From: Bacteroidales bacterium
Lineage (GTDB): Bacteria > Bacteroidota > Bacteroidia > Bacteroidales > TTA-H9
DNA: 64,000 nucleotides
Direction of reading: 5' to 3'
Assembly (NCBI GenBank): GCA_028689615.1
Contig: JAQVCV010000006.1
Location: 1 to 64,000, forward strand
In this document: piece by piece, positions 20,227 through 20,768 of the stretch
How positions within the stretch are numbered: the first letter of the stretch is position 1
Layout of the letters: every line of letters begins with the position of its first letter
Position numbers and translations under genes: made by a program
Notes under the pieces: generated by a model
What the model saw: only the letters and a program-made list of their open reading frames with translations
Databases searched by the model: none
Told to the model about the DNA's origin: nothing

Positions 20227-20260
20227 TAAAATGAAGTCAATTCTTGACTTCATTTTTTTT
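20227..20260 (+). terminator. terminator of pyrBI
   Basis: ATGAAGTCAA / TTGACTTCAT 10-bp stem, loop TTC, followed by eight T. Confidence 0.85.
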
Positions 20261-20490
20261 AAATGCTGTCCCGAAATCATTGGTTTTTATATGAAAATGC
20301 ATTATATCATTTATCCTATATCGTATAGTTTTATTGTTTATAATAATTGACTGAAATCTAATTAATAATCATTATTTCAGGCATTTAGTCATACTATTGT
20401 GTTTTTGAAGGCCCTATCGGATAAGAACAATACGACTTCTAATTAATAAATATTTCTATAATTAACTATTTATAAGCCCAGTACGACGTT

Positions 20491-20505
20491 TGGCACAACA
20501 ATTGA
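20491..20505 (+). promoter_or_regulatory. possible sigma-54-type promoter
   Basis: TGGCAC, 5 bases, TTGA: the GG and the G of the -12 element are 10 bases apart as in sigma-54 promoters, but the consensus GC at -12 is GA here. It precedes the structured RNA candidate by about 11 bases. Upstream, 20316-20328 (CTATA-TCG-TATAG) is a possible activator palindrome. Confidence 0.4.
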
Positions 20506-20515
20506 GATATTCTAT

Positions 20516-20658
20516 ATGCTGTTGCAGGTAAAACTTGGTAATAAACCAAATTAAACTCTCTTTACCTACTTTTCATTAGTTGTTTTTGTTGTTTTAAGTT
20601 ATTAAGTACTTTTTGATTACTTTTTCCGGTTCGCAGTGATGCGCACCGGTTTTTTTTT
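20516..20658 (+). ncRNA. candidate structured small RNA
   Basis: The 600-base gap between pyrI and the AOR gene contains no supportable ORF, but has an isolated strong terminator at 20626-20658 well beyond the pyrI terminator. Between it and the sigma-54-like element are nested stems: AGGTAAA (20526-20532) with TTTACCT (20561-20567) enclosing TTGGT (20535-20539) with ACCAA (20545-20549). This layout, promoter-like box, nested hairpins and intrinsic terminator, fits a small RNA of about 140 nt. I do not recognise the family. The 5' end is an estimate. Confidence 0.5.
20626..20658 (+). terminator. orphan intrinsic terminator
   Basis: CCGGTTCGCA / TGCGCACCGG stem (one mismatch), loop GTGA, followed by nine T. 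GC-rich in an AT-rich surrounding and with no coding gene ending near it. Confidence 0.8.
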
Positions 20659-20734
20659 ATAGGCGACAGAATAGCCTCTCTTTCTTTTATAAATCCTATG
20701 AATTATGATGGGCTTTTATCGATTCAAACACCAA

Positions 20735-20768
20735 TGAAAAAAGGCTCTTGCAAGAAATTGCAAGAGCC
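20735..20768 (-). terminator. terminator of AOR gene
   Basis: GGCTCTTGCAA / TTGCAAGAGCC 11-bp stem with a GAAA-type loop; T-run on the minus strand. Confidence 0.85.

Follow-up and report, generated by a model that had tools for sequence, protein, structure and literature searches.

A putative sigma-54-controlled small RNA gene and its candidate regulon in an uncultured family of Bacteroidales

The Qrr sRNAs of Vibrio and CrcZ of Pseudomonas are switched on through sigma-54 by an activator of the NtrC class (LuxO and CbrB, respectively). To our knowledge, dedicated stress circuits of this kind, in which a sigma-54 regulon under activator control includes an sRNA, have so far been described mainly in Proteobacteria, and we know of very little about the roles of sigma-54 in Bacteroidota. 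No report of a sigma-54-driven sRNA in Bacteroidota was found in the open-access literature. Sigma-54 dependence has been reported for glmY (PMC3162934), and Bacteroides thetaiotaomicron has the paralogous, multicopy, trans-acting intergenic sRNAs GibS and FopS, with promoters of the sigma-ABfr or promoter-motif-2 (PM2) type (PMC11697453).

We have analyzed a stretch of 64,000 nucleotides of a Bacteroidales genome (hereafter, the window), and describe a previously uncatalogued RNA gene in the gap between pyrI and a convergent gene for an aldehyde ferredoxin oxidoreductase-like protein (AOR). On the sequence evidence, we assign a probability of roughly 0.83 to its being a stand-alone, regulatory sRNA gene under activator-controlled sigma-54. 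The features of the gap are as follows.

20228-20256, plus strand: intrinsic-terminator-like hairpin ending the pyrBI transcript (13-pair stem, then a T run), which separates pyrBI from the RNA gene
20312-20327, no strand assigned: candidate distal enhancer (UAS) dyad TATCCTATATCGTATA, matching 11 of the 13 specified positions of TATCCG-NNN-TCGGATA and starting 206 bp before 20518
20408-20423, no strand assigned: candidate proximal half-site CTATCGGATA for this motif, which starts 110 bp upstream of 20518 and is weak when taken singly
20491-20505, plus strand: predicted sigma-54 promoter TGGCAC-N5-TTGA (-24/-12)
20518-20658, plus strand: small RNA gene of about 140 nt, predicted start 20517/20518
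20520-20543, plus strand: 5' hairpin UGUUGCAGGU-AAA-ACUUGGUAAUA
20552-20565, plus strand: invariant, mostly unpaired segment UAAACUCUCUUUAC, a candidate seed or protein-binding site
20596-20622, plus strand: accessory A/U-rich stem-loop, variable between lineages but present in most copies
20626-20658, plus strand: intrinsic terminator with a GNRA-type (GUGA) loop and nine T
20743-20768, minus strand: terminator of the convergent AOR gene, a boundary of the gap outside the RNA gene

The new RNA resembles GlmY/GlmZ of enterobacteria, which depend on sigma-54 and the GlrR activator, in having paralogous intergenic copies, a sigma-54 box, upstream activator sites and an intrinsic terminator. It differs from them, however, in enhancer motif, phylum and neighbours, shows no sequence or covariance match to them in the Rfam scan, and has no visible link with glmS. 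With Qrr and CrcZ it shares the predicted control by an NtrC-class activator through sigma-54, but no homology at the Rfam gathering score, the sole CrcZ match being a 9-bit chance hit on the other strand. GibS and FopS, which are also marked by an R1 seed, are likewise multicopy intergenic sRNAs of Bacteroidales, and their promoters differ from the sigma-54 type predicted here; order- and class-wide searches with models of the new RNA gave no credible homologue outside its one family. The covariance check proposed in an earlier, sequence-only reading of this gap matched no Rfam family: none (GlmZ, Qrr, CrcZ, 6S and others) exceeded the gathering threshold, and none was credible at a permissive E-value either.

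The pyrI stop lies at about 20188, and the gap beyond the pyrBI terminator is AT-rich (26% GC over 20261-20490). Homologues of the RNA gene were found in eight of the nine genomes of one uncultured Bacteroidales family, the single genome without it being 76% complete. The genome of the window carries a second copy, 85% identical to the first, and the match spans exactly 20518-20658. The RNA adjoins pyrI in six genomes (G003, G004, G005, G006, G007 and G008). In G000 and G001, the second copy is flanked by a GRAM-domain-like ORF and a hydrolase, and proximity to pyrI and AOR is incidental. The locus of this second copy, with neighbours as in the relative GWE2_42_24, also occurs on contig QKAV01000099.1 (L039), which is labelled Crocinitomicaceae SZUA-381 and is probably misbinned or mislabelled.

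The RNA start GCTGTTGCAGGT is invariant in all 11 copies examined, and alignment of the same gap in relatives, which the sequence-only reading had suggested, gave a block conserved in every copy from 20518 to the T run of the terminator. That reading had proposed a regulated small RNA of about 140 nt, and the proposal is supported by these start-to-terminator boundaries together with the paralogues, the synteny, the lack of a conserved ORF, the enhancer dyads and the presence of rpoN in the genome. In a covariance search of 393 genomes of the order, only terminator-like matches of 33-37 bits were obtained outside the family, and these were rejected as homologues since they are without the promoter and the 5' core. 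With a promoter-plus-core model applied to 395 genomes of the class, true copies scored 82-84 bits and everything elsewhere at most 22.7 bits; the latter matches were rejected as chance.

The TGGCAC-N5-TTGA element lies where it had been noticed earlier, with TGGCAC (20491-20496) and TTGA (20502-20505) separated by a 5-nt spacer (20497-20501), and the window copy has GA rather than GC at the -12 element when compared with the consensus TGGCAC-N5-TTGC. All of the 11 copies have the pattern TGGYAY-N5-TTG, and its distance to the invariant start, 12-14 nt, is that expected for sigma-54. The pattern stands within otherwise diverged DNA: over the 200 bp upstream, anchored at GCTGTTGCAGGT, the mean identity between copies is 0.32-0.46. 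The genome encodes RpoN (PF00309 match) and ten strong sigma-54 activator domains (PF00158 matches).

Every copy has a distal dyad TATCCG-NNN-TCGGATA, located between -190 and -220 and scoring 10 to 13 of 13. Its score was not reached by any of 300 shuffles in eight of the 11 copies and was reached by 0.3-3% of shuffles in the other three; these include the window copy, where TATCCTATATCGTATA is the best match in the region -260 to -161 and 0.7% of dinucleotide shuffles reach its score. The proximal half-site keeps the same register (start at -108 to -111) in most copies, each being weak. These candidate enhancer sites, dyads at -190 to -220 and half-sites at about -110, fall within the range of 80-250 bp upstream expected of sigma-54-dependent genes. 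Near activator genes, where autoregulation might be sought, no dyad scored 11/13 or higher. The layout of the RNA gene is that of sigma-54 transcription under strict control by an enhancer-binding protein, as predicted from these sites.

Within the RNA, the 5' hairpin is paired in 96.7% of cells across 10 copies, and because its pairs are almost invariant it receives no support from covariation. The segment UAAACUCUCUUUAC does not vary among the 11 copies, even where the downstream part is missing. The middle part is U-rich and variable and is lost in G005 and G008, which lack the accessory stem-loop. The lone GC-rich terminator of the sequence-only reading is confirmed: the stem occupies 20626-20649 and the nine T occupy 20650-20658, and in a comparison of 10 copies two pairs of the terminator have changed in a compensatory way, from CG to UA. 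The nested stems of that reading (AGGTAAA/TTTACCT around TTGGT/ACCAA) exist in the window copy and form its own minimum-energy fold, but they find no support in relatives, since the inner end pair is broken in eight of 10 copies and no pair shows a compensatory change; the elements that relatives do support are the 5' hairpin, UAAACUCUCUUUAC and the terminator. Taken by itself, the window copy folds only modestly better than shuffles (z -1.9 for 20491-20658 and z -1.0 for 20518-20664). Because this is unremarkable and structure alone is no proof, the case rests on conservation. At two unrelated Bacteroidales loci (L053:1501-1630 and L054:1501-1627), the terminators have the same CAGNGAUG-type (GNRA-like) loop as the RNA gene, and such terminators may be common throughout the order.

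When the family genomes were searched for the dyad, a conserved operon emerged whose two small ORFs encode about 59-65 and 44-47 amino acids (e.g., MSIHSVEDLLVVFQRRCC... and MINLVIALFLLGAFAGSILYELRNAPTAEEQEDGSYRFV...), the second having a hydrophobic N-terminus. It lies directly downstream of metK in most species, and no Pfam family was found for either protein. In G001, G003, G004, G005, G006 and G008, the DNA ahead of the operon carries dyads and a sigma-54-like box; in the window's genome, where the operon is also present, the dyad is weaker and lies about 207 bp upstream of the predicted start. Its locations are as follows.

L145:3037-3430 (G000:C22): small-protein operon in the window's genome, downstream of metK
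L089, L091, L092, L093, L094 and L096: other loci of the small-protein operon

Since the same dyad and sigma-54-like box precede both the RNA gene and this operon, a small regulon is likely, and the operon appears to be controlled by the same activator. Beyond the operon in L091 and L093, a tmRNA-like 3' end (GGAGCTGCGGAGAGTCGAACTCCGGTCC, complementary strand) adjoins the metK operon in two genera.

We propose that an enhancer-binding protein of the NtrC class would bind the dyads upstream, one about 200 bp and the other about 100 bp away, and drive sigma-54 RNA polymerase at 20491-20505, giving a transcript of about 140 nt that would end at the intrinsic terminator; the same activator would also control the two-small-protein operon. 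The 5' hairpin and the 3' terminator may protect the exposed UAAACUCUCUUUAC segment, and from this architecture, in which the ends are protected and an invariant segment is exposed, we infer a trans-acting sRNA, the segment most likely acting by imperfect base pairing with mRNAs. We favour base pairing as the mode of action, with some reserve. The sequence GTAAAGAGAGT is absent from the window's genome outside the RNA genes and no 11-nt complement occurs elsewhere; no antisense target of the invariant segment was common to different species; and duplexes with the starts of the small-protein operon, pyrB, pyrI and AOR were no better than those of shuffles. Bacteroides sRNAs, FopS among them, pair near start codons (PMC11697453), and the lack of a long match is therefore compatible with pairing. 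The main rival to base pairing is that the same sigma-54-controlled RNA titrates a protein, as a sponge of the CrcZ or Csr type, through this segment. The pyrimidine-rich character and invariance of UAAACUCUCUUUAC in all copies and the absence of a long complementary site would suit such a role, but each RNA carries the motif a single time and titrating RNAs usually contain repeats of theirs, no candidate protein emerged, and we regard titration as distinctly the less probable of the two.

Explanations other than an sRNA gene are much less probable. A small peptide translated from an internal TTG or ATG start is very improbable: a TTG-initiated frame of 47-48 codons does exist in some copies (e.g., G000b and G004), but in the window copy it is absent or stops early, indels between copies are not multiples of three, and no frame is common to the copies, in agreement with the earlier remark that no ORF explains the gap. 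Equally improbable is an intergenic element of the REP or MITE type, repeated or mobile, as might be suggested by the fact that two genomes have two copies each; no genome has more than two, each locus keeps its neighbours across species (pyrI, or the GRAM-domain ORF and hydrolase), all copies have the promoter and enhancer motifs upstream, where the DNA is otherwise unrelated, and phage, plasmid and viral collections contained no match to the RNA gene. The position between pyrBI and AOR, next to pyrI in most relatives, could point to an untranslated region or attenuator of one of these genes, but this we consider the least probable of all, since pyrI and AOR each have their own terminator (20228-20256, and 20743-20768 on the minus strand), the paralogue adjoins unrelated genes and the RNA gene has its own predicted promoter.

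The sRNA gene reading thus provides an RNA family together with its promoter, its enhancer motif and another member of the regulon, each open to direct test. In addition, conservation that begins sharply at a -24/-12 promoter can be used to locate sRNA genes in uncultured lineages. For the biology of the family, it seems somewhat more probable than otherwise that Bacteroidales possess an undescribed activator-controlled sigma-54 regulon with TATCCG-NNN-TCGGATA enhancers, which would comprise one or two copies of the new sRNA and the operon of two small proteins, one of them possibly membrane-anchored, and which may serve as a dedicated stress circuit.
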